Of a stretch of 35,896 nt of DNA, positions 4,078 through 21,201 are shown piece after piece. The DNA is from a virus. The notes under the pieces were generated by a model. That model saw only the letters and a list, made by a program, of their open reading frames with translations. It did no database searches and was not told where the DNA came from. A program made the translations under genes and the position numbers. The DNA lies in IMG/VR virus record IMGVR_UViG_3300003323_000810, positions 1-35,896 of that record. One strand, 5' to 3'. Numbering within the stretch: position 1 is the stretch's first letter; every line of letters begins with the position of its first letter.

Positions 4078-4326
4078 TCAGTGCATCGCCTTCAGGGTCT
4101 TGGCGAGAGCCGCGCGCCGGCGCAGCGTCGGGTTGTCCGAGTGGGCGGCCTTCTCGAGCTTTTTGGCCGGGATTTTCTCGCCTTCGGGCACACCAAGCTC
4201 GCGATGCAGGGCGCCGGGGTGTTTGATGGCGCCGCTGATCCATTTGGTGCGCCCACCAGAAGCGCGATCTACTTCCCGTGGGCCGAGCTGAAAGGGTGGT
4301 GCGCCGCGCCAGGCGCCATCGGGCTC
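4078..4326 (-). CDS. Reading frame without a start codon; likely frameshift extension of the 4269-4517 gene
   Basis: In the -1 frame relative to the gene at 4269-4517 there is an open stretch from 4326 to a TGA at 4080-4078. Its C-terminal part reads like a real phage protein: T-K-W-I-S-G-A-I-K-H-P-G-A-L-H then L-G-V-P-E-G-E-K-I-P-A-K-K-L, ending L-A-K-T-L-K-A-M-H. From memory this resembles a small basic family common in alphaproteobacterial phages. There is no ATG, GTG or TTG in frame after the preceding stop (4329-4327), so it cannot be started normally. A ribosome slipping -1 in the upstream gene would read straight into it. A one-base assembly error in the GGG run just before the upstream stop would give the same picture. 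The next gene starts one base after its stop. Confidence 0.6.
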   Translation of the reverse strand, partial: EPDGAWRGAPPFQLGPREVDRASGGRTKWISGAIKHPGALHRELGVPEGEKIPAKKLEKAAHSDNPTLRRRAALAKTLKAMH

Positions 4327-4517
4327 TTATCGGAGCCGACCTTGCCGCCGCGGGTACGCTTGTCGAGCCGATGCTTGGGCTTGCCGCCCTCCATCTTCCC
4401 GACCACCTTGCCGCCGTCTTTGCGCTCGAAGGCTTCCTTGGCAACGTTGCTGTTGCCGCCAGCGTAGAAGACCTTGCCCCCGCCGGCCTTGCGTTGAACC
4501 TTGTGCCGATTTGCCAT
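4269..4517 (-). CDS. Small basic Gly/Lys-rich phage protein
   Basis: This encodes 82 residues if read without frameshifting. A CGGAGA ribosome binding site lies six bases before the ATG. The composition is very basic and Gly-rich, with K-A-G-G-G-K-V, D-G-G-K-V-V-G-K and R-G-G-K-V blocks, and no hydrophobic core. Similar small proteins accompany capsid genes in related phages, and a second one lies at 9513-9716 here. The function is unknown; DNA or scaffold contact is possible. Its 3' end overlaps a start-less reading frame in the -1 frame and contains a CCCTTTC heptamer in the register needed for -1 slippage. Confidence 0.7.
   Translation of the reverse strand: MANRHKVQRKAGGGKVFYAGGNSNVAKEAFERKDGGKVVGKMEGGKPKHRLDKRTRGGKVGSDKSPMAPGAAHHPFSSAHGK
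4290..4296 (-). other. Candidate -1 slippery heptamer CCCTTTC
   Basis: On the minus strand the frame reads CAC-CCT-TTC, so C-CCT-TTC fits the X-XXY-YYZ pattern exactly. It is nine codons before the TAG of the 82-residue frame. Slippage here would continue into the conserved-looking frame ending at 4078. No clear stimulatory hairpin was worked out by eye. Confidence 0.4.
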
Positions 4518-4528
4518 CGCGTTCTCCG

Positions 4529-5506
4529 TCAGACCGAACTGAATTGCGTCGCGCCGAACAGACCGGACACGTTGGTCGACGTGACGGAGGCCAGAGCCGA
4601 AACCGGCGGCAGCACATGAATCTGCAACCTGTTCGAGCCGTTCGAGGCCAGCGACGACGTGAAAGTGCCGCGCACGTCTGGGGTGGTCGACGTCTGCGTC
4701 GCAGCGGTGGACGCGAGGATCGTATTGGCCGAAGACAGGGCGATGCTCACGCCGCCGTTGCCGCTCAGACCGCCTGACGACATCGAGACCGAGACGTTCT
4801 GGCCCGTGTAGCCGACCGCCATGGGGAACCCAAAGACATCCGTCAGACCGATCGACACGCCGGTGCTAGTCACCGTGGTCGAGGCCGTGATCGACGAGAT
4901 GTATTTGAAAGCCTTGACACCGGCCGTCACAGCGCTGGAGAAGATCGTCTCCGTCATCTTGTAGCCGTACATGTCACGGCCAGCGATGGTGTAGCCGCCC
5001 GCGTCAAGGTTCGACGAGGTAGCCAGCAGAATGGCGCGGCCGGCGCCTCCAGCCGGATTCCAAAGCGTCACTGTTCCGTCCGAGCCGAACGCAACCGATG
5101 CCGCGGTGCTGTCGATCGCGATCACCGAGACCGACAGGCCGGTTTCGGGGGCGATGATGGTGGTCGAATAGGTGCCCTTCGCCGACGAAGGCGTCAGCGT
5201 GATCGCGGCGCCAGCCGACGGCACGGTGTTCGAGCTGATCGCGAACGCGTTGGACGAGGCCGACGACGGCGCGTAGTCGACGATACCGCGGCCCTGATAG
5301 AAGCCGGTCACCGTGTTCGTGACCGCGCCGCCCGGCTCGTAGGCGTACGCCTGCCGCGGATCCAGAAGACCGAAGCTCAGGTCGAACAGAGACGGGCCAC
5401 GCTGCCCGTTGTTCTCCATGTTGTTGCCGGTGATCCCGTCGCCCGAGGTCGACGTCAGCGTGATGCCGTAGCCAAGGAACGGGCCGGAGAGTGCTGTGAT
5501 TGCCAT
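4529..5506 (-). CDS. Putative virion structural protein next to the capsid gene
   Basis: This encodes 325 residues, rich in Ser, Thr, Gly and Ala with very few charged residues, no membrane segment and a regular strand-turn pattern. It begins M-A-I-T-A-L-S-G-P-F-L-G-Y-G-I-T-L and contains L-D-P-R-Q-A-Y-A-Y-E-P-G-G near residue 50. It follows the major capsid gene by 15 bases. The size, composition and place fit an abundant particle protein such as a decoration or tail-tube type protein, but I cannot assign a family. Confidence 0.7.
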   Translation of the reverse strand: MAITALSGPFLGYGITLTSTSGDGITGNNMENNGQRGPSLFDLSFGLLDPRQAYAYEPGGAVTNTVTGFYQGRGIVDYAPSSASSNAFAISSNTVPSAGAAITLTPSSAKGTYSTTIIAPETGLSVSVIAIDSTAASVAFGSDGTVTLWNPAGGAGRAILLATSSNLDAGGYTIAGRDMYGYKMTETIFSSAVTAGVKAFKYISSITASTTVTSTGVSIGLTDVFGFPMAVGYTGQNVSVSMSSGGLSGNGGVSIALSSANTILASTAATQTSTTPDVRGTFTSSLASNGSNRLQIHVLPPVSALASVTSTNVSGLFGATQFSSV

Positions 5507-5521: not shown

Positions 5522-6436
5522 TTACGAGGTCGGGAAGTTTCCCTGCACCGCGCGCCATTCCCAGTAAGTCGGGATGTAGCGCTGATAGCCCTTGACCAGC
5601 AGGTTGTCGGTCGTGAACTCCACCGACATGTCGGTCTCGAACGGCTTGCGGTCGAACATCGCGAGGCCCGGAATGTTCGTGAGAACGAACCACGAGTAGT
5701 TCGACGTGAGGTAGTCCCAGACCATGAACCCGTCCTTGAAGGACTGATCCATGTGCAGGACCGCGTTGATGTCGTTGTTGCCGGTGCCGACGCGAAGTTC
5801 AGACCGGAACAGGCGTGCAGCGATCGGCTCCAGCGTCGGAGGCACGATCAGCTTGCGGCCACGCGCGTGAATCTTCAGGCCGGCGTTGTCGAGCCACGTC
5901 GACCGGACCGTGATACCGGCATTGAGCAGCGACGTCTCGTTGAGGCTGGCCTGCGTGGTCGGCGTGTTGCCGATGGTCGAGCCGTCGATCGGGTGCGCGG
6001 TCGAGAACAGCGCCACACCGTCGCCGCCGATCTGCGGGTTGTAGGTCTGGCCGGTGTTGAAGACGTTCGCGGCGTAGACCTCCTCGGTCTCCTTGAACGA
6101 CTCCATCAGGCCATCGTTGTTCGGGCCGAAATCGGACTTGTAGAGGTTGTCGTCGATCGCCTTGCGCGTGATCGCGTACATCAGGCCGATTTCGAACGAC
6201 TCTGCGTTGTAGATGAAGCGCTCGCCGGCGGCGTTGTCGGCCGATGTCGGCGCGCCTTCCTGCTTGAGCTGGGCGTAGCTCAGGTAACGCATCGAGGCGC
6301 GGCGTTCGACCGCCATGCTGGATTCGATGCGCTTGAAGATCTGCGGCCACTGCCGCTCGATCATCGGATACTTGCCGGAAACACCCCACAGGCCCGGCAG
6401 GAGCAGGTCGCGGATTTGGGAGAGTGCGACGGGCAT
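5522..6436 (-). CDS. Major capsid protein
   Basis: This encodes 304 residues. A TAGGAG ribosome binding site lies seven bases before the ATG. The protein starts with P-V-A-L-S-Q-I-R-D-L-L-L-P-G-L-W and contains F-S-T-A-H-P-I-D-G near residue 145, a pattern common in HK97-fold major head proteins of phages. Middle helices (E-S-F-E-I-G-L-M-Y-A-I-T-R-K-A-I-D-D-N-L-Y) and the final strand-rich part fit the same fold. It lies downstream of terminase, portal and a scaffold candidate, the usual order. The length is typical. Confidence in the role is high; the exact subfamily is inferred. Confidence 0.85.
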   Translation of the reverse strand: MPVALSQIRDLLLPGLWGVSGKYPMIERQWPQIFKRIESSMAVERRASMRYLSYAQLKQEGAPTSADNAAGERFIYNAESFEIGLMYAITRKAIDDNLYKSDFGPNNDGLMESFKETEEVYAANVFNTGQTYNPQIGGDGVALFSTAHPIDGSTIGNTPTTQASLNETSLLNAGITVRSTWLDNAGLKIHARGRKLIVPPTLEPIAARLFRSELRVGTGNNDINAVLHMDQSFKDGFMVWDYLTSNYSWFVLTNIPGLAMFDRKPFETDMSVEFTTDNLLVKGYQRYIPTYWEWRAVQGNFPTS

Positions 6437-9720: not shown

Positions 9721-9990
9721 TCAATCCTTCTTGAACTCGGCAGTGCGCGGCGGAATCGCTCGCTCCTTCTGCGGCGAATAGATTTCGAGCACCGCACGCT
9801 CGGGGTGCTCGCGGTCAAACGGGAGAATCCGGCCCTCGCGGACCTCGACGGCCGGATTGCCCTTGTCAGCGGCCACAGGCGGATAGCGGCGCTCCGCGGT
9901 CTCGCGCGGGCAAGGGCTTTTGTCGACGCCCATCTTGGCCATCTTGTCGTAGTAGGACTTCTCGTATTCGTTCTGGAACGGGTTAGGCAT
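9721..9990 (-). CDS. Small charged phage protein
   Basis: This encodes 89 residues. The ATG at 9990 overlaps the portal stop by eight bases (ATGCCTAA). It begins M-P-N-P-F-Q-N-E-Y-E-K-S-Y-Y-D-K-M-A-K-M-G and is rich in Glu, Lys, Arg and Pro with no hydrophobic segment. The function is unknown. Close coupling to the portal suggests a head-associated role. Confidence 0.6.
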   Translation of the reverse strand: MPNPFQNEYEKSYYDKMAKMGVDKSPCPRETAERRYPPVAADKGNPAVEVREGRILPFDREHPERAVLEIYSPQKERAIPPRTAEFKKD

Positions 9991-12484
9991 CGGTCTTCTC
10001 CCTCGCGGATTTCCGCGGCTTCTTCGCCTGCTGCAGCCGCGCCTCGTGCATCTGCTGGCCGTGCTCCATGCGCTGGTCGTGCTGTTCCTGCTTCATGTGC
10101 ATGGAAAGGATCGCTTCGATCAGCGACATCACAGCGTCGGCCTGCTTCCGGTCGCCCTGCTGCTGCGCATCGTTGGCGTGGATGATCTCGCTCTGGCGCG
10201 TATCCATGACCTCTTTGATGAGGCGCAGGATTTCGATCTGTTCGCGGGACTGGCGGTCCGCGGCGCGGTCGACAAGCTGGTCGTGCGCGGTCGCGGCCTT
10301 GATCGTGGCTAGCTTCTCCTGGACCTGCGCCATCCGCTCCTGCTGCGCGGACTTCTGCTTGATCGCCTCGAAGCGCGGGTCGGGCTGCGGGTTGGCCGGC
10401 ACCGGGTTCATCGTGTCCTCGGCGTCGAGGCCGACGATGGTCATGACCTTGCGATCGACCTTGTACGGGTCGTAGAGTGTCGGCGACGCCTTCTGAAGCT
10501 CCTTCAGGCCGGCGGCCTTGGCGATGCGGTGCAGGCTGGTCGGATTGTTCGGATCGGCCACCGGCACGAGGCCGTAGGTGTCGAGCGCCTTGAGGAACTG
10601 CTCTTTCTGCCACGGCTTCGCTGGCCGCTTGTTGTGCCGCCAGAACGCTTCGGGGTCCTCGCGGAAACAGTCGGCGAGCAGGCCGAACTCCTCGGCCTGC
10701 GCGGCATGAAGCCGCTTGTGCACCGAGTCGATCATCTTGGTCGCCTGCTCGATCAGCGCAAGCGTGGTGCCGACCGGCGCGTCCTGCTTGCCCTCGCCGA
10801 CCATGATGTTCGCGGTCTGGCTCAGGCGCTGAACCACCTCCTCGACGTGCGCGATGAAAGTCGCAAACGACGGTCCCGTTTCCTTGTACGGGAGCGCCAT
10901 GAAGGCTTTGCGGATATCGTCGAGCGTGCCGATGTCGAACAGCGCGACGCCGCCCGGGGGCACGCGAATCTGGTTCGAGCTCTGCCGGCCCGCGCCCTTG
11001 GCCCCCAGCATGCCCGGGAAGTTCGCGAACATGCCGTTGTCGAGCATCAGTCGGTAGGCCGCAGTCAGCGCGATCGTCAGGTTGCCGAGGATGTGCACAT
11101 AGCCGATGCCGTAGAAGCCGAGGCCGCGGATGAACGGGAACTGGACGAAGCGATGGCGCGCCAGGCACATCGCATCGTCTTCCTTCCAGTTCCGGCGAAT
11201 TTGCAGGATCTGCCGGCTCTGCTCCTCGATCGTGACGATGTAAGGCAGCGGCAGGCTCTTGCCCTTGAACTGCTCAGGCGCGAACTCGTCAATGTCGAGC
11301 TCGCAATAGCACTCGAAGACGATGTAGCTGCCGTCCTCGGGCCGCGTCGGACGCGCCGGAACACCCTGGATGTCGGCCTTTTTCTCCTCGACCGGATTGA
11401 TGGTCGTGGCGATATTCGGCTGCTGCAGCGTCACATCGCGATAGGCGCCGATGATCTGCATGCGCCGCACCAGCGCCGGCCGCATTTTGATGCGGTGCGT
11501 GACACGGATGCAGTTCTTCAGGTCCGTCGACGCGTTCGCGACGATCAGGTCGTCGGCGTCGACGCTTTCGGACACGGGCCGGCGCCTCAGCGGGCAGTTG
11601 AAGACCTTCTTGAAGCCGTCACCACCGAAGCCGACGTAGAACAGCATCCGGTCCGTGTCTGGCACGTACTCGGTCGCCGTCACGGTCAGGTAGTGGTTGA
11701 AATCTTTCTCCAGCGCGGCCGCGAGGTCGTCGCCGCTTTCCTTGATCGCGGGCGCGGCGGGAGGCGGCGGCGCGGCCGGCGGTGCTGGCGCAGCCATCGG
11801 CGGCGCGCCAGCAGCGGCTTCCGGAGGCGCAAAAGGTGCCGGCGCAGCGACAGGTGACTGCGCCGGCGGGGCTGCCCCTGTCGGGGGGGCAGCCGGTGCC
11901 GGGCCCGCTTCTTCGAGAGGCGGACCACCGTTGTGCCCGATTGTGGGGAGGGCGGGAGGCGCAACGGGTGGCGGCACAGGGGTGTCGTTCCGGACCTTCA
12001 CGGGCCCCGACGCGGGCAAAAGCTCGCTGCGGGCCGTGGCCTGGAAACGAATGGTGGCTTCGAGCAGCGCCGGGTGCCGGATTGTCGACATGCCCTCCAG
12101 CGGCGCGGTGGTGTTGACGTCGCTGCGCGGCTCCTCGAGCTGCAGGCCGAGCAACGTAATGCCACGCGCGCGGGTCGCAAGCCATTCGCTGCGGGATTGG
12201 TCGTCCGCCTGGATGCCTTGCAGCAGCTGCTCGGCGATCTGGGCGAGCCTGTCGGCGTCGATGTGGTCGGCCAGATTGGCGTCGAACGCGAGATTTTCCG
12301 CGCTTTTGGTCTGCGGGCTGAAGTCGACGGTGACCGAGCCGTCGGCGTTCTGCGTCACGGCCGCGCCGTCCTGCGCCTCGGGCGCCGGCGTCTCCGGCGT
12401 CAGGTCGATCTCGACCGACGCATCGAACGGATTCGGCGCCTCGGGCTCGACCAGTCGCAGGCTGTGCGTGCGGGCAGTCGCCAT
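9983..12484 (-). CDS. Portal protein with internal Pro/Ala-rich insert
   Basis: This encodes 833 residues. A GAGG site lies eight bases before the ATG. The N-terminal part (about 75-170) and the part after about 250 look like the large portal proteins of podoviruses: a helical body including H-K-R-L-H-A-A-Q-A-E-E-F and A-D-P-N-N-P-T-S-L-H-R, then a long Gln/Glu-rich C-terminal helical barrel region. Portals form the twelve-part ring through which terminase packages DNA. Between about residues 170 and 250 there is a low-complexity Pro/Ala stretch containing I-G-H-N-G-G-P-P-L-E-E. The gene follows terL by 73 bases, the usual order. Confidence 0.8.
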   Translation of the reverse strand: MATARTHSLRLVEPEAPNPFDASVEIDLTPETPAPEAQDGAAVTQNADGSVTVDFSPQTKSAENLAFDANLADHIDADRLAQIAEQLLQGIQADDQSRSEWLATRARGITLLGLQLEEPRSDVNTTAPLEGMSTIRHPALLEATIRFQATARSELLPASGPVKVRNDTPVPPPVAPPALPTIGHNGGPPLEEAGPAPAAPPTGAAPPAQSPVAAPAPFAPPEAAAGAPPMAAPAPPAAPPPPAAPAIKESGDDLAAALEKDFNHYLTVTATEYVPDTDRMLFYVGFGGDGFKKVFNCPLRRRPVSESVDADDLIVANASTDLKNCIRVTHRIKMRPALVRRMQIIGAYRDVTLQQPNIATTINPVEEKKADIQGVPARPTRPEDGSYIVFECYCELDIDEFAPEQFKGKSLPLPYIVTIEEQSRQILQIRRNWKEDDAMCLARHRFVQFPFIRGLGFYGIGYVHILGNLTIALTAAYRLMLDNGMFANFPGMLGAKGAGRQSSNQIRVPPGGVALFDIGTLDDIRKAFMALPYKETGPSFATFIAHVEEVVQRLSQTANIMVGEGKQDAPVGTTLALIEQATKMIDSVHKRLHAAQAEEFGLLADCFREDPEAFWRHNKRPAKPWQKEQFLKALDTYGLVPVADPNNPTSLHRIAKAAGLKELQKASPTLYDPYKVDRKVMTIVGLDAEDTMNPVPANPQPDPRFEAIKQKSAQQERMAQVQEKLATIKAATAHDQLVDRAADRQSREQIEILRLIKEVMDTRQSEIIHANDAQQQGDRKQADAVMSLIEAILSMHMKQEQHDQRMEHGQQMHEARLQQAKKPRKSAREKTDA

Positions 12485-12557: not shown

Positions 12558-14216
12558 TCAGGCCGGATAGAGCGGCGTGGGCCGGGACCGGTAGCGGGTC
12601 TCTTCCTCGACCTCGGCCGCATGCTCTTCGCGCCGCAGCAGCAGATTGGCACGGCGGAGGTGGAGCAGCGCCTGCGACATGGAGTCGACCATGTCGTCAT
12701 GGCCTTTCGGGAAGACCGCGCACTGGTCGATCATGGCCTGCGCCCATTCCTTGTCGGGCGCGTAGATCAGCCCCTCGCTGAACAGGTGCACGATGGCGTG
12801 CACGCGCGCGACCTTGTCGCCGTATTCGCGAGGATTGAACAACTGGATGCCGAACTCGGCCGAGCCGAACATGCGGCGCAGTTCCTGACTGACCGAATGG
12901 CCGGCCGCCTTGTCCTCGATCAGGATGCGATCGACGCGGAACGCGCGGCAGTCCGCATGAACTCGGCGCACCAAGTCGGGAAATTGCAACCGATCCTCCC
13001 ACGCCAGCATCAACATGACGTTCGGATTTCCGGCCTTGTCGCGCCAGACGCCCCAGATCGACAGCGCCGACGGGTCGTTTTCTTCCTGCTCGGTGTAGGC
13101 GGTGTCGAGGCTCGCGAGGATGTATTCGCACCGCGGGTAGGTGTTTGGCTTTACGCCGTTTTTGGCCGCGGCCTCGTCGTCCCAGTCCTGCCACCAGTCG
13201 CGCTTGATGATGCCGCCGCCGCGCGGCTCGGGACTCTGCATGTACTGGCCGGCAAACGCGTACGGCCCCAGCTCCTTTTCGAGCTTGCGGACTTCGGCGG
13301 CCGGGAAGCGGGCCGGCCAGAGCAGGTCACCTTCCTTGGTCCTCGGGTCCTTCCAGAACACATCTTCCGACGCGACAGCATCGGCCTCGTCGGCCAGGAA
13401 AGTCTCGATTTTATCGGCATTCCAGCCGTTCACGTGGCGGCATGGCTCGTAGTACATCGGCAGGCAGATGTGCGTGTAGCCGAGGTCGTTTTTGAGGATG
13501 TGGCCGGCGACGTCATCCTCGTTGACGCGCTGCATGACGACGATCATCGCGCCAGTCATGCGGTTGTTGAGACGGGACGGCATCGTTTCCGTCCACCACC
13601 TCACGACGCCCTCGCGCACCAGTTCGGACTCGGCCTCCTTCACGAGGTGCGGATCGTCCGCCACGAGCACGTCGGCGCCGTAACCGGTGGCGCGCGCGTC
13701 GACCGATGACGCCATCCGATAGCCGCCCTTCGAGTTCTCGAAGTGGCCTTTGGTGTTGCGGTCCGAGACCAGATCGAAGCGCTGGCCCCAATGCTTGCGA
13801 TACCAGTTGGATTCGACGAGCCGCCGCGTCTTCAGGCTGTGCTCTAGCGACAGCTGCTCGGCGTACGAGGCGTAGAAAAACGAGACCTGCGGGCCGGCCA
13901 GCACGCGGCGCTCGCGCTGCGCCCAGACCCACGCCGGGAAGCACACCGAGACCAGCGACGTCTTTGCTGACCGCGGCGGCACGTTGATGAGCAGCCGCTT
14001 GATGTGGCCGTCGGCGACTGCCTCCAGGTGCTCCGCGATCGCGTGGAGGTGCCAGTTGTCGGTGAAATCCGACGGATCGAAGTTCGGCCAAGCCGCCTTC
14101 AGGAATTCCGCCAGGCTCGCCTCGCACCTCTCGGCTTCCCGGATTTCGTGGATGCGGCGCATCGCTTTGGCGAGCGTGACGGCGCGGTCGCGGAGTGTGA
14201 GGGGGTCGGTGGACAC
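12558..14216 (-). CDS. terL: Terminase large subunit
   Basis: This encodes 552 residues. It is the DNA-packaging motor: an N-terminal ATPase with Walker A V-P-P-R-S-A-K-T (79-86) and Walker B V-L-V-A-D-D-P-H (183-190), and a C-terminal RNase-H-like nuclease with acidic clusters at S-L-D-T-A-Y (369-374), I-E-D-K-A-A-G (433-439) and H-D-D-M-V-D-S (506-512). The length is normal and all key residues are present. The start is a GTG at 14216 with no strong ribosome binding site; an internal ATG at 14162 is possible. The gene is divergent from the regulator at 14298. Its small-subunit partner is 9 kb away at 23455-23988. Confidence 0.95.
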   Translation of the reverse strand: MSTDPLTLRDRAVTLAKAMRRIHEIREAERCEASLAEFLKAAWPNFDPSDFTDNWHLHAIAEHLEAVADGHIKRLLINVPPRSAKTSLVSVCFPAWVWAQRERRVLAGPQVSFFYASYAEQLSLEHSLKTRRLVESNWYRKHWGQRFDLVSDRNTKGHFENSKGGYRMASSVDARATGYGADVLVADDPHLVKEAESELVREGVVRWWTETMPSRLNNRMTGAMIVVMQRVNEDDVAGHILKNDLGYTHICLPMYYEPCRHVNGWNADKIETFLADEADAVASEDVFWKDPRTKEGDLLWPARFPAAEVRKLEKELGPYAFAGQYMQSPEPRGGGIIKRDWWQDWDDEAAAKNGVKPNTYPRCEYILASLDTAYTEQEENDPSALSIWGVWRDKAGNPNVMLMLAWEDRLQFPDLVRRVHADCRAFRVDRILIEDKAAGHSVSQELRRMFGSAEFGIQLFNPREYGDKVARVHAIVHLFSEGLIYAPDKEWAQAMIDQCAVFPKGHDDMVDSMSQALLHLRRANLLLRREEHAAEVEEETRYRSRPTPLYPA

Positions 14217-15004: not shown

Positions 15005-15513
15005 CCGCTACCCTCTCGACCAAATCCCTGGCCCTGCGCCCGCTCACCAAGGCGACGCCGCAGCACGTCGAGTGGCTGAACGACCCCGAGACCGTGAAGT
15101 TCAGCGAGCAGCGCCACGTCACGCACACGCCGGCGTCGGTCGCGCGCTACGTCAACAGCTTCGACCATAAGAGCGGATTTCTGTGGTCGGTCGTGCACGT
15201 CGAGAGCGGCAAGCCCATCGGCACGGTGGCGTCGCGCATCGACGAGGACAACAGCATCGCAGACCTCGGCATCCTGTTGGGGGACATGCGCGGCAAGGGC
15301 TACGGCCGCGAGGCATGGAACGCGTGCGCCGGCTGGCTGCTTGCGAAGAACGGCGCCGCGGTGCGCAAGGTCGAGGCCGGCACCATGGCGGTGAACACGC
15401 CGATGCGCCGGACCATGGACGCCACTGGGTTCAGGCTCGAAGGCGAGCGGCTGAATCACTTCCTCTGGCAGTCGCAGCCCGTCGGCATGGTTCTCTACGG
15501 GCGCTTTCCATGA
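15001..15513 (+). CDS. GNAT acetyltransferase, probably acting on a sugar
   Basis: This encodes 170 residues. The acetyl-CoA binding signature R-G-K-G-Y-G-R-E-A-W (97-106) follows a strand L-G-I-L-L-G-D-M, as in RimJ/RimL-type GNAT enzymes. The N-terminal W-L-N-D-P-E-T-V-K-F-S-E-Q-R-H is the type of helix seen in nonulosonic-acid pathway acetylases such as PseH. In those pathways the enzyme acetylates the amino group of a nucleotide-linked amino sugar. The neighbours (aminotransferases, CMP-sugar synthetase) make a sugar substrate likely, but a protein or small-molecule substrate cannot be excluded. Confidence 0.75.
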   Translation: MTATLSTKSLALRPLTKATPQHVEWLNDPETVKFSEQRHVTHTPASVARYVNSFDHKSGFLWSVVHVESGKPIGTVASRIDEDNSIADLGILLGDMRGKGYGREAWNACAGWLLAKNGAAVRKVEAGTMAVNTPMRRTMDATGFRLEGERLNHFLWQSQPVGMVLYGRFP

Positions 15514-16127
15514 CCAGCCAAGCGGCCATCATGCTGTGCGGCGAAGGTGACCGCTGGTTCGCGCGCAACCGCGACAAGCTCGGGCAAGTGGATCCCGTCT
15601 GCGATCTTCTTGAGCAGCACAAGGTTGTGCCGACCGCTGTGCTCGAAATCGGTTGCTCCGACGGTTGGCGGCTGAAGAAGTTGCGCGAGCGCTACGGCTG
15701 CGCCGTGAACGGCATCGACGCCAGCGAGAAAGCGGTGAAGGAAGCAGAAGCCGCGGGCATCGACGCGCAATGGTGCAGCGCCGACAAAGTGTCGTTCGTG
15801 AGCCGTCGGTTCGACCTCGTGATCTTCGGCTTCTGCCTCTACCTCGTTGACCGCGTGGACCTGCTGCGCGTGGTATTCGAGTCCGACCGCGTGCTGAAAG
15901 ACGGCGGCCACATCGTCGTGCACGACTTCTACCATCCTGACCGCGGCACGGCGTATCGCACGCCGTACGTTCATCGCGTGGACCTTTGGTCCTACCACAT
16001 GAACCACGAGGAGCTGTGGCTCGCGCATCCGTCGTATCGGCGCCTCGGCCACATCATGCCGGACGACGACACAGCGGCGGTGCTGCTCAAGAAGGACCAC
16101 GCCGCTTCGTGGCCGGTGCTGGGATGA
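15510..16127 (+). CDS. SAM-dependent methyltransferase
   Basis: This encodes 205 residues from the ATG at 15510, which overlaps the acetyltransferase stop as ATGA; an open frame reaching further upstream lies inside that gene. Motif I is V-L-E-I-G-C-S-D-G-W (44-53), with the acidic ribose-binding residue D70 in V-N-G-I-D-A-S. F-D-L-V-I-F-G-F-C-L-Y-L is motif IV. It is a class I Rossmann methyltransferase of the type found in sugar and polysaccharide clusters. The likely substrate is the sugar or glycan made by this operon (O- or N-methylation), which is inferred from context. Confidence 0.75.
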   Translation: MTSQAAIMLCGEGDRWFARNRDKLGQVDPVCDLLEQHKVVPTAVLEIGCSDGWRLKKLRERYGCAVNGIDASEKAVKEAEAAGIDAQWCSADKVSFVSRRFDLVIFGFCLYLVDRVDLLRVVFESDRVLKDGGHIVVHDFYHPDRGTAYRTPYVHRVDLWSYHMNHEELWLAHPSYRRLGHIMPDDDTAAVLLKKDHAASWPVLG

Positions 16128-16399
16128 AGCAAACATTCGAGCAGCGCCGCGACTATGAGCGCAACGATCATCGACGATTCGGCGCGGCCGTGGCGTGGGG
16201 ACTTATTTTCGGCGCGCCTTACTTGATCGCGGTCAAAATGTTGGGTTTCCGCCCGCGATACCCGGCAGGCTGGTTCGTTGTCGCTGGGTTCGTCTGTTTC
16301 TATGTCGCCGGGATTGTTGCGGGCTACCGCTTCCACGAACGCGTCGTCAATTATCTCACGCTTCAGGTCTACCGCTTCGTCGGATGGTGGCACCGATGA
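16124..16399 (+). CDS. Small two-helix membrane protein in the sugar operon
   Basis: This encodes 91 residues. A basic N-terminus (about 25 residues, many Arg) is followed by two hydrophobic helices, roughly 27-48 (F-G-A-A-V-A-W-G-L-I-F-G-A-P-Y-L-I-A-V) and 54-73 (G-W-F-V-V-A-G-F-V-C-F-Y-V-A-G-I-V-A-G). Starts and stops are coupled by ATGA on both sides. It is too small for a flippase. It could be a membrane anchor, an inhibitor of a host glycan enzyme or a superinfection-exclusion protein. No family is recognised. Confidence 0.6.
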   Translation: MKQTFEQRRDYERNDHRRFGAAVAWGLIFGAPYLIAVKMLGFRPRYPAGWFVVAGFVCFYVAGIVAGYRFHERVVNYLTLQVYRFVGWWHR

Positions 16400-17304
16400 G
16401 CAAGACGATCGGCGTCATCGGGCTCGGATCAATTGGCGCACGTCACGCGCGCAGTTTGCGTGATCTTGGATGCGAAGTATGGGGGTACGATCCCGACCCG
16501 GCCAAAGCACAAGGGCTTGGCATCTATCCGATCGCCGACCCATTGCACCATGCCTATGACACGATCCGGATGGCGGATGGCGTAGTCATAGCCAACCCCA
16601 CACATAATCACTATCGCGTGCTGCTGGAGAGCATGGCCTACAAGCGGCCAACGTTTGTCGAGAAACCTCTTGTCGCTACGGACAATGAATGGCGCGATCT
16701 GCACAACTATCTGAGCACAAAAGCGCTGGTCGTAGGGTACAACCAGCGCTTCAACTCCGCCGTCCGCCATGCCAAGGCGTGGCTCGACACCGGCGCAATC
16801 GGCACTCCGACATGGGCGACGTTCTCGTGCGCGCAGCACAACGAAAAGCCGGACTATCTGCGCGACGGCGTGATCCTCAACTGGTCGCATGAAATCGACC
16901 TCGCGCTGTATCTGCTCGGACCGGCGAAGGTGCACGACGCTATCATCGATAAGGACAAGCGCGAGTCCTGCGCCGACATTCTGCTGATCCACGACAACGC
17001 GGTCGTGACGCACATCCATCTCGACTACGTGACGAAACCGGAGCGGCGCGGCTTTGCGATCGGCGGTGCGGGTGGCTGGTTGTCGGCAAGCCTGCCGGAT
17101 CGCAAGACGTCGCTCTACGGCGCGGACGGCCGCGAGGAACACTTCTGCGACGGCGTCGGCAGCTACGACCAGGACTACAAAGACGAAATGCAGGCGTTCC
17201 TCGATCGTATCGACGGCAAGGAAACCATCGGTGCGACCGGCGAGGAAGGGCTTGCCGTGCTGCGCGTGTGTCTCGACGCAAAAATGAAGGCGATGCTCGG
17301 ATGA
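16396..17304 (+). CDS. Gfo/Idh/MocA family oxidoreductase
   Basis: This encodes 302 residues. The N-terminal Rossmann domain has the NAD(P) motif G-L-G-S-I-G (9-14) and the second strand acidic residue in G-Y-D-P-D. F-V-E-K-P-L (87-92) carries the conserved E-K-P lysine of the family, and N-W-S-H-E-I-D-L-A-L-Y holds the catalytic-region histidine. Family members oxidise or reduce sugar hydroxyls, often on UDP-sugars or nonulosonic-acid precursors, ahead of an aminotransferase. Here it is directly before the CMP-transferase/aminotransferase fusion, which fits a keto-sugar made for transamination. The substrate is unknown. Confidence 0.8.
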   Translation: MSKTIGVIGLGSIGARHARSLRDLGCEVWGYDPDPAKAQGLGIYPIADPLHHAYDTIRMADGVVIANPTHNHYRVLLESMAYKRPTFVEKPLVATDNEWRDLHNYLSTKALVVGYNQRFNSAVRHAKAWLDTGAIGTPTWATFSCAQHNEKPDYLRDGVILNWSHEIDLALYLLGPAKVHDAIIDKDKRESCADILLIHDNAVVTHIHLDYVTKPERRGFAIGGAGGWLSASLPDRKTSLYGADGREEHFCDGVGSYDQDYKDEMQAFLDRIDGKETIGATGEEGLAVLRVCLDAKMKAMLG

Positions 17305-19334
17305 AAGTCGTTGCGGTCATACAGGCGCGCATGGGATCGAGCCGGCTGCCGGGCAAGGTCATGATGGACCTCTGCGGCGAGCCGGTGCTGTCGTGGGTCG
17401 TGCGCGGGTGCCTCATGGCGCCAGGCGTGGACGAAGTCGTCGTCGCCACCACGACCGAGGAGCGCGACGACGAGATCGAGAAGTGGTGCGGCACCCGGCC
17501 GGTCGGTATCTTCCGCGGCTCGGAGACGGACGTGCTGTCGCGTTTCGTCGGAGCCGCGGAGAAATACAGCGCGGACGTGATCCTGCGCATAACTGGCGAC
17601 TGCCCGTTCGTCGATCCCGAGGTGATCGGCTCGGTCGTTCGGTTGCACAAGAAAACCGGCGCGCCGTACGTGAGCAACATCCATCCGCGGACCTATCCCG
17701 ACGGCTTGGACGTCGAGTTGTTCACGCGCGACCTGCTGATGACGGCGCATGCGGAGGCAACGCGCGCCGTGGACCGCGATTGCGTGACCTACTGGATAGT
17801 CCGCAACCGGTCGCGCTTCCCGGCCGAGGCCGTGGTGTGCCCAGTCTCCGGTCTGCAAGACGAGCGCTGGGTGCTCGACACCGAGGCGGATCTGAAGTTC
17901 TGCCGCGCCATCGCCGAGCGAATGGTGTTCGACCCTGTCGGCAAGAAGTACGAGCACTCGACCTACCTGAACATCCTCGAAATCCTCGACAAGCATCCGG
18001 GGCTCCGCGAACTCAACGCGGGGCACGTGATGAACGAAAGGTTCTACGATGCGCTGGCCGATGAAGCGATCGTTCCACGAAACTATGGGCGCTCTGCAGC
18101 TCAGCTTGCTCGTGCTGAAGCGGTCATTCCGCTCGGCGCCCAGACCTTCAGCAAATCACGAGTCCAGTTTCCCGCCGGAAGTCCCCTTTTCCTCTCCCAC
18201 GGACAAGGCGCTCTCGTCTGGGATATCGACGGAAACGAATACGTTGATTGCGTGTCCGCATTGCTCCCTGTCGTTCTGGGTTACCGGGACCCCGACGTGG
18301 ACGCAGCCATCAGACGGCAGCTCGGAAGCGGAATTTCTTTCTCTCTCGCCACCGAGCTCGAAGCTGAACTAGCGGAGCGGCTGCGCCGGTTGATCCCGTG
18401 CGCCGAGATGGCGCGGTTCGGCAAGAACGGCAGCGACGTGACGACAGCGGCGATACGCGTGGCTCGCGCCCACACCGGTCACGACCGCGTGCTGATGTGC
18501 AAATCGCACTATCACGGCTGGGGCGACTGGGCGCTGTCGGAAGACCGCAGCGTCGGCGTACCGGAAGCGGTGCGAGACCTGACCACGCGCATTCCATTCG
18601 GTCACGACCCCGAGATGTGGCTGAAGGCCGGAGACGTGGCCGCGATCATCGTCGAGCCGGAGACCAATCCGGAATACCTGAAACTGCTGCGCGAGCGCTG
18701 CGACCACTATGGTGCGGTCCTGATCTTCGACGAGATCATCACCGGCTTCCGCTTCGACATGGGCGGCGCGCAGAAGCTGTACGGCGTCACGCCTGACCTT
18801 GCGACGTTCGGCAAGGCGATGGGCAACGGGATGCCGATCAACGCCATCGTCGGCAAGCGCAAGCTGATGCAGCGCATGGCGCCGGGCGAAAAGCCGAACG
18901 TGTTTTTCAGCGGCACGTTCCAGGGCGAAACGTTGTCGCTCGCGGCCGCCATCGCGACCATCGACAAGATGGAGCGTGACAAGGTCATTCGGAAGCTGTG
19001 GAACACCGGCGCTGAACTCGATGGCGCAGTGCAAGCTCTCATTAATGCTCACGGGCTCGAAACGACGGTGAAGCTGTCGGGCCACGCGCCGCTGGTTCGG
19101 CTCAATTTCTCATCGCCGGAAGTTGCGACCCTGTTCCGCAAGGAGATGATCGCGACCGGAACGCTGATCATCGGCTCGCACAACATCAGCGCGTCGCATG
19201 ACGCGAATTGTTTGCGGCGCATCCTGAAGTCCTACGAACACACGTTCGGTTCGATTGCCGACTGCTTGAAGCGCGGCGATCTCAAGCAACGCATTGGCAA
19301 TGACGTCGTGCAGCAGATGGTGAGGGCGTCATGA
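17301..19334 (+). CDS. Fused CMP-sugar synthetase-like nucleotidyltransferase / class III aminotransferase
   Basis: This encodes 677 residues from the ATG at 17301 (ATGA overlap); the frame is open slightly upstream. Residues 1-240 are an SpsF/PseF-type cytidylyltransferase: I-Q-A-R-M-G-S-S-R-L-P-G-K (7-19) is the CTP-binding loop, with G-D-C-P-F-V-D-P-E (99-107) further on. Residues from about 250 to 677 are a class III PLP aminotransferase like glutamate-1-semialdehyde aminomutase: F-D-E-I-I-T-G-F-R (476-484) and the Schiff-base lysine K505 in F-G-K-A-M-G-N-G-M. Such enzymes usually come as separate neighbouring genes. An internal ATG at 18030 marks the domain border. Codon use from about 18055 to 18380 is unlike its flanks. 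Role: activation of an acidic sugar with CMP and amination of a precursor, inferred. Confidence 0.85.
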   Translation: MKVVAVIQARMGSSRLPGKVMMDLCGEPVLSWVVRGCLMAPGVDEVVVATTTEERDDEIEKWCGTRPVGIFRGSETDVLSRFVGAAEKYSADVILRITGDCPFVDPEVIGSVVRLHKKTGAPYVSNIHPRTYPDGLDVELFTRDLLMTAHAEATRAVDRDCVTYWIVRNRSRFPAEAVVCPVSGLQDERWVLDTEADLKFCRAIAERMVFDPVGKKYEHSTYLNILEILDKHPGLRELNAGHVMNERFYDALADEAIVPRNYGRSAAQLARAEAVIPLGAQTFSKSRVQFPAGSPLFLSHGQGALVWDIDGNEYVDCVSALLPVVLGYRDPDVDAAIRRQLGSGISFSLATELEAELAERLRRLIPCAEMARFGKNGSDVTTAAIRVARAHTGHDRVLMCKSHYHGWGDWALSEDRSVGVPEAVRDLTTRIPFGHDPEMWLKAGDVAAIIVEPETNPEYLKLLRERCDHYGAVLIFDEIITGFRFDMGGAQKLYGVTPDLATFGKAMGNGMPINAIVGKRKLMQRMAPGEKPNVFFSGTFQGETLSLAAAIATIDKMERDKVIRKLWNTGAELDGAVQALINAHGLETTVKLSGHAPLVRLNFSSPEVATLFRKEMIATGTLIIGSHNISASHDANCLRRILKSYEHTFGSIADCLKRGDLKQRIGNDVVQQMVRAS

Positions 19335-19525
19335 GAGCGTTACTGTTGCTTGCTTGGATTGCAGGCACGGCTCTTTTCATGGGGTACATGGGACCGTGTC
19401 CACAAGACGCTCCCTATTCATGCGTCATCAAACGTTCCGCTGTCGTGATGTTCTGGCCTGCGGTTATAGCTCACGACATCATTAGATGGTCGGCGGATAC
19501 ACACGCAGAAAGCACAAAGCGATGA
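19331..19525 (+). CDS. Small membrane protein in the sugar operon
   Basis: This encodes 64 residues. An N-terminal hydrophobic helix (A-L-L-L-L-A-W-I-A-G-T-A-L-F-M-G-Y) is followed by a short loop with two cysteines (P-C-P-Q-D and Y-S-C-V-I-K-R) and a second moderately hydrophobic stretch (A-V-V-M-F-W-P-A-V-I-A). It is coupled by ATGA at both ends. The base composition is lower in GC than its neighbours. The function is unknown; a membrane-located partner or inhibitor of the glycan pathway is possible. Confidence 0.55.
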   Translation: MRALLLLAWIAGTALFMGYMGPCPQDAPYSCVIKRSAVVMFWPAVIAHDIIRWSADTHAESTKR

Positions 19526-20646
19526 TCCTCGCCATCGACGGCGGCACGCCTGAAGTCCGCGGCCAGCTCGCACCGTTCAACACCATCGGCCGCGAGGAGA
19601 TCGCTGCGGCGACAACCGCAATCGAGAGCGGCGTGCTGTCCGGCTTCATCGGCGGCGAGCTTCGCGGCGGCAAGCACGTCCGCGCGCTGGAAGACGCGTG
19701 GTGCGAGACGTTCGGAGTGCGGCATGCGGTGGCATGCAACTCGGCAACGAGCGCGCTTCTCGCGGCGTGCGCGGCGGTGGGCGTCGAACACGGTGACGAC
19801 GTCGTCACCACTCCATTCACCATGAGCGCGACGGCGGCCGCGCCGCGTCTACTCGGAGCCAACATCACGTTCACCGACATCGAAGAAGACTTCTTCTGCA
19901 TCGGCAAAGGCCACGATGTCATTCCCAAGGTTTTGATCGCGTCGAACATCTTCGGCCAGCCAACATCAATCGGTCGGCTTTCCGACATCTCCGGGGTTTT
20001 GACCATCGAGGACAACGCGCAAGCGCCATTCGCGATGAACCACGGGAAATACGCCGGCACCATCGCGGACATCGGCTGCTGGTCCCTTAACGTGCACAAG
20101 CACTTCCAGTCCGGCGAAGGCGGCGTCTGCACGACTGACGACGACGCTTTGGCGCAGGAGCTGCGGCACTTCATCAACCACGGCGAGATGGCCGGGTCGC
20201 GGGTCGGCCTCAACCTCCGGATGACCGAGGTCACGGCCGCCATAGCCCTCGCGCAACTCCGCAAGGCCAAGGCGATCATGGTGGACCGCGTCGACCTGGC
20301 CGAGAGCCTGACGCGATCGGTGCGCGGCCTTCCCGGACTCACGCCACCGGTCGTGCGCTCCGGCTGCATGCACAGCTACTACCTCTGGGCGCTGAAGGTC
20401 TCCCGCGACCGCGACTGGTTCGTGCGCGCGATGAAGGCGGAGGGCGTGCCGCTCTACGCCGGCTACGTGCCGCCGCTGTACCGGCTGCCCGCGTTCTCGC
20501 AATTCGCGCGGCCCTGTCCGGTCGCCGAGCGGATGCACGACAGAGAGCTTGCGCTGTTCGAAGTCTGCGCGCACGCGCCGACCGCCGCTCAGATCACGCA
20601 GATCGGCAACGCGTTCCAGAAGGTTGCGGAGAATATGCGGGGCTGA
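19522..20646 (+). CDS. DegT/DnrJ/EryC1-type sugar aminotransferase
   Basis: This encodes 374 residues of normal length. N-S-A-T-S-A-L (73-79) binds the PLP phosphate, E-D-N-A-Q-A-P (163-169) holds the pyridine-nitrogen aspartate, and K193 in S-L-N-V-H-K-H-F-Q-S-G-E-G-G is the Schiff-base lysine. These enzymes place an amino group on a 3- or 4-keto nucleotide sugar, as PseC and LegC do. It is the second aminotransferase of the operon, so the final sugar may carry two amino groups, one perhaps acetylated and one formylated by the neighbouring enzymes. That scheme is inferred. Confidence 0.9.
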   Translation: MILAIDGGTPEVRGQLAPFNTIGREEIAAATTAIESGVLSGFIGGELRGGKHVRALEDAWCETFGVRHAVACNSATSALLAACAAVGVEHGDDVVTTPFTMSATAAAPRLLGANITFTDIEEDFFCIGKGHDVIPKVLIASNIFGQPTSIGRLSDISGVLTIEDNAQAPFAMNHGKYAGTIADIGCWSLNVHKHFQSGEGGVCTTDDDALAQELRHFINHGEMAGSRVGLNLRMTEVTAAIALAQLRKAKAIMVDRVDLAESLTRSVRGLPGLTPPVVRSGCMHSYYLWALKVSRDRDWFVRAMKAEGVPLYAGYVPPLYRLPAFSQFARPCPVAERMHDRELALFEVCAHAPTAAQITQIGNAFQKVAENMRG

Positions 20647-20649
20647 CAC

Positions 20650-21201
20650 ATGACCCCCATCCTCTACCTCGGCCCCCCATCGCCGCTGATCGACTTCCTC
20701 GAGCGCGGCGGCGACCGCGTCGAGTCTACCGAAGACGACGTGAACGGCATCACGGTTGCTGCGGAAGGCGCGTGGCTCATCAGCTACGGCTACCGCCACA
20801 TCCTGCGCCGGCCAACGCTCGACCTTTTCGCCGGCCGCGCGGTCAACTTGCACATCTCGTTTCTGCCCTGGAACCGCGGCGCCGACCCAAACCTGTGGTC
20901 ATGGGTTGACGGCACCCCGAAAGGCGTGACCATCCACCACCTCGACGAGGGCATCGACACCGGCGACATCATCACGCAGCGCCGCGTCGAGTTCACGCCG
21001 CACGACACGCTGGCGACCTCCTACGCCAAGCTCCGCGCCGACCTCGAGCTACTGTTCATGGAGACGTGGCCCGCGATCAAGGCGGGCACCGCACCGCGTA
21101 TCCCGCAGCCGAAGCCGCCGAGGCGGACGCGCGATCGAGCGGCAATCGCGCAGCCACGCGGCTGGGACACGCCGGTGACAGCAATCGCTGCGTCATCCTG
21201 A
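20650..21201 (+). CDS. Formyltransferase-like protein, probably sugar N-formyltransferase
   Basis: This encodes 183 residues. It has the formyltransferase active-site set: N66 and H68 in V-N-L-H-I-S-F-L-P-W-N-R-G, and G-I-D-T-G-D (101-106) with the catalytic aspartate. This is the 10-formyl-tetrahydrofolate-dependent fold shared by methionyl-tRNA formyltransferase and sugar N-formyltransferases. It lacks the tRNA-binding C-terminal domain of Fmt, and it follows a sugar aminotransferase by three bases, so an amino sugar is the likely substrate. The first sheet is short compared with typical members. Its 3' end overlaps the end of the convergent gene at 21193 by nine bases. Confidence 0.8.
   Translation: MTPILYLGPPSPLIDFLERGGDRVESTEDDVNGITVAAEGAWLISYGYRHILRRPTLDLFAGRAVNLHISFLPWNRGADPNLWSWVDGTPKGVTIHHLDEGIDTGDIITQRRVEFTPHDTLATSYAKLRADLELLFMETWPAIKAGTAPRIPQPKPPRRTRDRAAIAQPRGWDTPVTAIAASS

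Follow-up and report, generated by a model that had tools for sequence, protein, structure and literature searches.

How is a conserved reading frame translated when it has no start codon of its own? This question is raised by a frame, here called B, that follows a small gene, A, in a virus record of 35,896 bases (the window, by which we mean the whole stretch of DNA analysed). We propose that ribosomes reach B from A.

The A-B junction in the window

The late genes of the window lie on the minus strand. Their order is terminase large subunit (12558-14216), portal (9983-12484), a probable major head protein (5522-6436; phrog_371, E 5.8e-7; Mu-like gpT, E 3e-4), a second protein (4529-5506), A, B and further genes, which include a probable tail spike (913-2943). 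Gene A is downstream of the probable head protein gene in the same operon.

Gene A (4269..4517, minus strand) encodes 82 aa, MANRHKVQ...HHPFSSAHGK, in what we call the 0 frame. The protein is basic and Gly-rich, the gene ends with a TAG at 4271-4269, and homologous A parts are present in related loci. Frame B, from stop to stop, occupies 4078..4326 of the same strand in the -1 frame of A. It has no internal stop, and its translation (...PREVDRASGGRTKWISGAIKHPGALHRELG...KAMH) ends in a stop codon. When 4326-4078 was scanned for ATG, GTG or TTG, none was found before the last two residues. The heptamer C_CCU_UUC (4290..4296, minus strand) begins 25 bases before the TAG of A and is in register for -1 slippage: the A frame reads CAC CCT TTC AGC and the -1 frame reads CCC TTT CAG. 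An earlier note on this DNA had described a conserved frame without a start in the -1 frame of the preceding gene, and a CCCTTTC in exact register 25 bases ahead of the stop. It gave no strand; all of its statements about the sequence hold on the minus strand.

A 6-base spacer (4284..4289, minus strand) separates the heptamer from a predicted stimulatory hairpin (4251..4283, minus strand), in which a G.G mismatch divides the stem into two 6-bp helices and the loop has 7 bases. The TAG of A falls partly at the top of the 5' arm and partly in the loop. The predicted energy is -21.6 kcal/mol with a z score of -3.5, and 0 of 200 shuffles matched it. A structure about 5-9 bases downstream of the slip site is thus present in the window; in the other group I loci described below it is found unevenly.

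Based on these features and on the comparisons that follow, we think it very likely (probability about 0.93) that programmed -1 ribosomal frameshifting yields A-B in this phage. In our model, most ribosomes would translate A to its TAG, whereas a fraction would be stalled by the hairpin 6 bases past C_CCU_UUC. The Pro and Phe tRNAs would then re-pair one base back, from CCU to CCC and from UUC to UUU, and the slipped ribosomes would read on in the B frame. The part of B used after slippage would be 4290-4078 (minus strand; 70 aa plus stop), which carries the KWIxGAIKHPGAL domain. The predicted trans-frame product (4078..4517, minus strand) would join 76 aa of A, ending HHPF, to these 70 aa, giving a protein of 146 aa and 15.7 kDa with the KWIxGAIKHPGAL domain at its C-terminus. 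The fusion has a predicted pI of 10.8. The slip and its efficiency are suppositions, as is the idea that A and A-B would both serve in the virion, with A in excess and A-B as a minor form.

Conservation of the putative slip signals

One heptamer in one sequence is weak evidence, since we estimate roughly that some in-frame X_XXY_YYZ would occur by chance in about 7% of stretches of this length. It is the comparison across relatives that makes the case strong. When IMG/VR was scanned with B, over 500 relatives were confirmed. The loci compared here came from scans that were blind to the heptamer and from one scan that required it, and they were sorted by their junction with A. By our own count, about three quarters of the 58 distinct A/B junctions have no ATG, GTG or TTG suitably placed for B.

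Group I includes the window; its A genes end in ..PFSSA.. or ..PFAPS.., with B in the -1 frame. CCCTTTC is in register in 16 distinct junctions of this group, the window among them, at 22-46 bases ahead of the stop of A, and 15 of these 16 came from the scans blind to the heptamer. The heptamer falls in the conserved Pro-Phe pair of A. Close to the C-terminus, group I A genes use C CCT TTC at 16/17 Pro-Phe/Leu sites, the 17th being a second Pro-Phe in L006. The same bases are used at 0/38 comparable sites in the A genes of other groups, despite a similar P-F/L-S motif, and at only 1/119 Pro-Phe pairs in the long ORFs of group I contigs, where CCT makes up 12.7% of Pro codons. The A proteins are strongly diverged (L078 versus L089, for example), but the seven bases of the heptamer are unchanged. 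Thus, the putative slip site is kept among the relatives beyond what codon usage would give. We give no P value, since the loci share ancestry and the counts are not independent. In L002 the heptamer is accompanied by a TTG that overlaps the stop of A. In three further loci (L080, L227 and L230) the hairpin of the window is present, but the slip position holds GGCTTTC or GGCTTTT, neither of them a standard heptamer.

The hairpin of group I occurs in two forms. Six sequences of a short type align without gaps and keep 88% of their pairs, compared with at most 56% when the partner strand is slid, and A-U/G-C exchanges are present at two pairs. Six sequences of a long type share another stem, made of two parts and lying at a similar distance. 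The z score is -4 to -5 in L078, L087 and L099 and near zero in L003 and L088; in L089 and L093 it is positive, with no clear hairpin. Over group I the mean z is -1.65, no better than the -1.53 of the downstream coding stretch. A strong hairpin is thus predicted in the window and in several of its relatives, but not throughout group I.

A second putative signal was found in another clade, group II, where the A genes end ..K(T/S)PAGRxVxxGES. All carry an invariant GGGGGAGTC, with GGGGGAG (read G_GGG_GAG) likewise invariant, and the stop of A comes immediately after GGGGGAGTC. A hairpin of 9-12 bp begins four bases later, with an average z of -3.5. A scan with the group II pattern returned 51 contigs with constant spacing, which represent 20 distinct junctions. 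When nine junctions of one stem register are aligned, all cells of the stem pair, including an A-U/C-G exchange. In L008 and L015 a nearby upstream stop in the B frame narrows the interval available for the slip to 13 or 19 bases, and this interval contains G_GGG_GAG.

These repeated junctions bear on what the earlier note regarded as the main rival of frameshifting, namely a one-base assembly or sequencing error in a gene that is truly continuous, with a base missing, for instance, from the GGG beside the stop. It is true of the sequence that one extra G there would join the frames, and A and B do form one gene in three relatives (see below). However, the same error would have to be repeated in tens of separately assembled contigs that show the split with a conserved heptamer or GGGGGAG; no joined version was found in group I or group II, and the A of the window ends with the usual PFSSA..stop pattern. 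We regard such an error as very unlikely. That many related environmental phages keep the split gene indicates that it reflects a genuine control signal and that sequencing error is not its cause. A case where an error is possible is L043: about 100 bases upstream of KWI it reads AGCAACAAGG, compared with AGCCAACAAGG in near-identical relatives, so that a run inside A is one base shorter and the frame of A is broken.

Another way to join the frames would be slippage of the RNA polymerase, which would produce a mixed mRNA population. The GGGGG of group II is a short homopolymer run of the kind that this would need. For slippage of the polymerase, though, a run of 3-5 bases is short, and CCCTTTC has none longer than 3; moreover, the codon register and the downstream hairpin are what ribosomal slippage predicts. 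Transcriptional slippage is, in our opinion, extremely unlikely.

Selection on B and other possible ways of reaching it

The B frame is under strong purifying selection in loci that have no start for it. Its medians are pN 0.22 and pS 0.71 in the start-less loci of group I, with pN<pS in 136/136 pairs, and pN 0.083 and pS 0.62 in those of group II, with pN<pS in 78/78 pairs. Between the window and L003, B has pN 0.06 and pS 0.55. Substitutions in B of the start-less loci fall mainly at third positions. Because B is under purifying selection and yet has no start, it would have to be reached from A. These values weigh heavily against the view that B is a decaying remnant and has ceased to be expressed, as does its lack of internal stops. 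The missing start codon would fit decay, as would the unusual junctions of a few relatives (L004, L012, L206 and L276), where no signal is evident, but we find this explanation scarcely credible.

One-piece relatives point in the same direction as the selection data. In L191, L247 and L270, A and B lie in one open frame. The protein of L247 shares 48% identity with the predicted 146-aa fusion of the window over 154 columns that span both parts, and its A part alone matches the A of the window at E 1e-12. The search for a one-piece homologue that the earlier note had recommended was thus successful. Its reading of the locus as a -1 frameshift is supported by the recurrence of the junction, the register of the heptamer, the hairpin, the selection on B and these homologues.

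The same note had counted homologues whose second part begins with its own ATG against a frameshift. Such homologues do exist, in L047, L060, L159 and L269, and in L022, L024 and L253 there is a ATGACTGA overlap. However, these are other lineages, where B stands as a small gene of its own or is coupled through an overlapping start, and they provide no such start for the window and its close relatives. A related possibility is that B is made as a separate protein from a non-standard start, such as the GTA at 4272-4270 that overlaps the stop of A, through termination and reinitiation. In many start-less loci GTA, ATA or CTG overlaps the stop of A in the B frame, and in other lineages ATG, GTG or TTG is found there, which would suit such a mechanism. 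GTA is not known as an efficient start, though, and a strong hairpin begins at this point or right after it. A non-standard start would also leave unexplained both the heptamer of group I and the invariant GGGGGAG of group II, and the one-piece homologues favour a fusion. We therefore consider initiation at such a codon very unlikely, and frameshifting remains our preferred explanation for the window.

Several minor junction types were observed. In L025 and L083, A ends C_CCT_TAG and B has no start; ribosomes that slipped by -1 while the stop occupied the A site (CCC TTA) would pass into B. L264 has G_GGG_GAA about five bases before the stop of A and a strong hairpin right after, an arrangement like that of group II in an unrelated junction sequence. 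In L041 and L072, A ends CCC_TGA or CCC_TAG and is followed by B in the +1 frame, as would be expected if ribosomes slipped +1 on a Pro codon at a stop. B is also in the +1 frame in L012, L206 and L276, where AAG, TAG or ACG stands at the start position and there is no clear slip site; in their relatives L022, L037 and L075 an ATG or GTG overlapping the stop of A (xxxACTGAC) occupies the matching position. Finally, in L004 (2884-3180) A and B share a frame with a single TAG between them and no later start for B, so that read-through or an unusual start is possible.

The candidate slip sites among these minor types suggest that recoding arose more than once, though each type rests on one or two contigs. 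We lean slightly towards a broader hypothesis, that across this widespread pair the same fusion is made by different recoding signals in different lineages, with selection for a VP2-like KWI tag (see below) on some or all of A, whatever the signal. The signals included in this hypothesis are C_CCU_UUC with a hairpin, G_GGG_GAG with a hairpin at the stop, G_GGG_GAA with a hairpin, C_CCU_UAG, +1 slippage at CCC_UGA or CCC_UAG, and one continuous gene. The A-B family is a natural series, with two main heptamers, hairpins with compensating changes and one-piece relatives, and it allows testing whether selection acts on the fusion as such or on the ratio between A and A-B. Because B has no start, gene finders will miss it, and a conserved domain of a virion operon will therefore go unannotated in many environmental genomes.

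Possible function and known systems

Searches against PHROG and Pfam gave no family match for A and no tail chaperone family match for A or B. B matches phrog_15706, a family of unknown function. The fusellovirus VP2 profile (PF25632) is matched at E<0.1 by 47 of the 48 B members, with 4.5e-6 as the best value; the B of the window scores 19.2 bits over 17 residues (10-26), which is below the Pfam cut-off of 27. An AlphaFold2 model of B has four helices with a mean pLDDT of 72.5, and a comparison of this model with PDB folds gave no match. In a PDB sequence search, the C-terminal half of the B profile aligned with residues 391-419 of crAss001 gp45 at a non-significant E of 0.3; we rejected a function for B based on gp45 as too weakly supported. 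gp45 is a cargo protein inside the virion (PMC10172136), and unlike B it is an 842-residue chain with no frameshift. 

Among the cultured phages of INPHARED, tblastn with A or B gave nothing at E 0.001-0.01. The B consensus gave one partial match there, to Tunturiibacter phage Tunturi_3 (E 1e-3), and non-significant matches to fusellovirus VP2. The B-like stretch of Tunturi_3 (97456-97542; L283:1501-1587) is unannotated and lies at the record end, near the opening point of a circular record; no A gene is evident in the annotation at this match. A search of genome contigs gave six MAG matches. Elsewhere among phages, B is a free gene that starts near KWI or a module of larger proteins.

We infer that B is a small helical virion-associated module and that slippage would attach it to a fraction of the A molecules, much as C-terminal extensions are added to phage head and tail proteins (PMC5009743). 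The -1 frameshifted proteins of this kind include T7/T3 gene 10 and proteins of Lactobacillus phage A2 and Listeria phages A118/A500 (PMC5009743). As in those systems, a gene of the virion operon gives a short product and a predicted minor longer form with a C-terminal domain, the -1 slip falling late in the first frame. Unlike them, A has no family match that would make it the major head or tail protein, the prediction for B is helical and not a beta-sandwich like the Ig-like extensions, and the predicted slip sites, C_CCU_UUC or G_GGG_GAG, are followed after 4-9 bases by a hairpin. The tail assembly chaperones G/GT of lambda and its relatives (PMC5009743; PRFect, PMC10885494) are, like the proposed A-B pair, two adjacent small genes joined by a programmed frameshift, and the direction and site of the shift, putative for A-B, vary between phages in both cases. 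However, the A-B pair stands just after a probable major head protein and has no chaperone family match.

According to a review (PMC9608457), VP2 of fuselloviruses is a virion protein, and bacterial viruses unrelated to these have homologues of it. The review states in one place that deletion of VP2 from SSV1 had no effect on assembly or infectivity, and yet elsewhere lists vp2 as apparently essential. The likeness to B lies in the first 17 residues of its KWI motif, which match the start of the VP2 profile. Unlike A-B, VP2 is a separate gene, for which we found no frameshift reported (PMC9608457).

The mechanism that we propose is already known, whereas neither the gene pair nor its slip signals seem to have been described before: a literature search largely confined to papers outside subscription did not find CCCTTTC or GGGGGAG as a phage slip site. 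A mycovirus CCC_UUU_C was considered as a precedent and rejected, as it is in another reading frame and was proposed as a +1 site (PMC9029208).

Away from the late operon, the plus strand of the window carries a run of sugar-type genes at 15183-21201. These encode a methyltransferase, a GFO/IDH/MocA oxidoreductase, a formyltransferase, a cytidylyltransferase fused to a class III aminotransferase, and a DegT/DnrJ aminotransferase. The run looks like a phage-borne nucleotide-sugar pathway.
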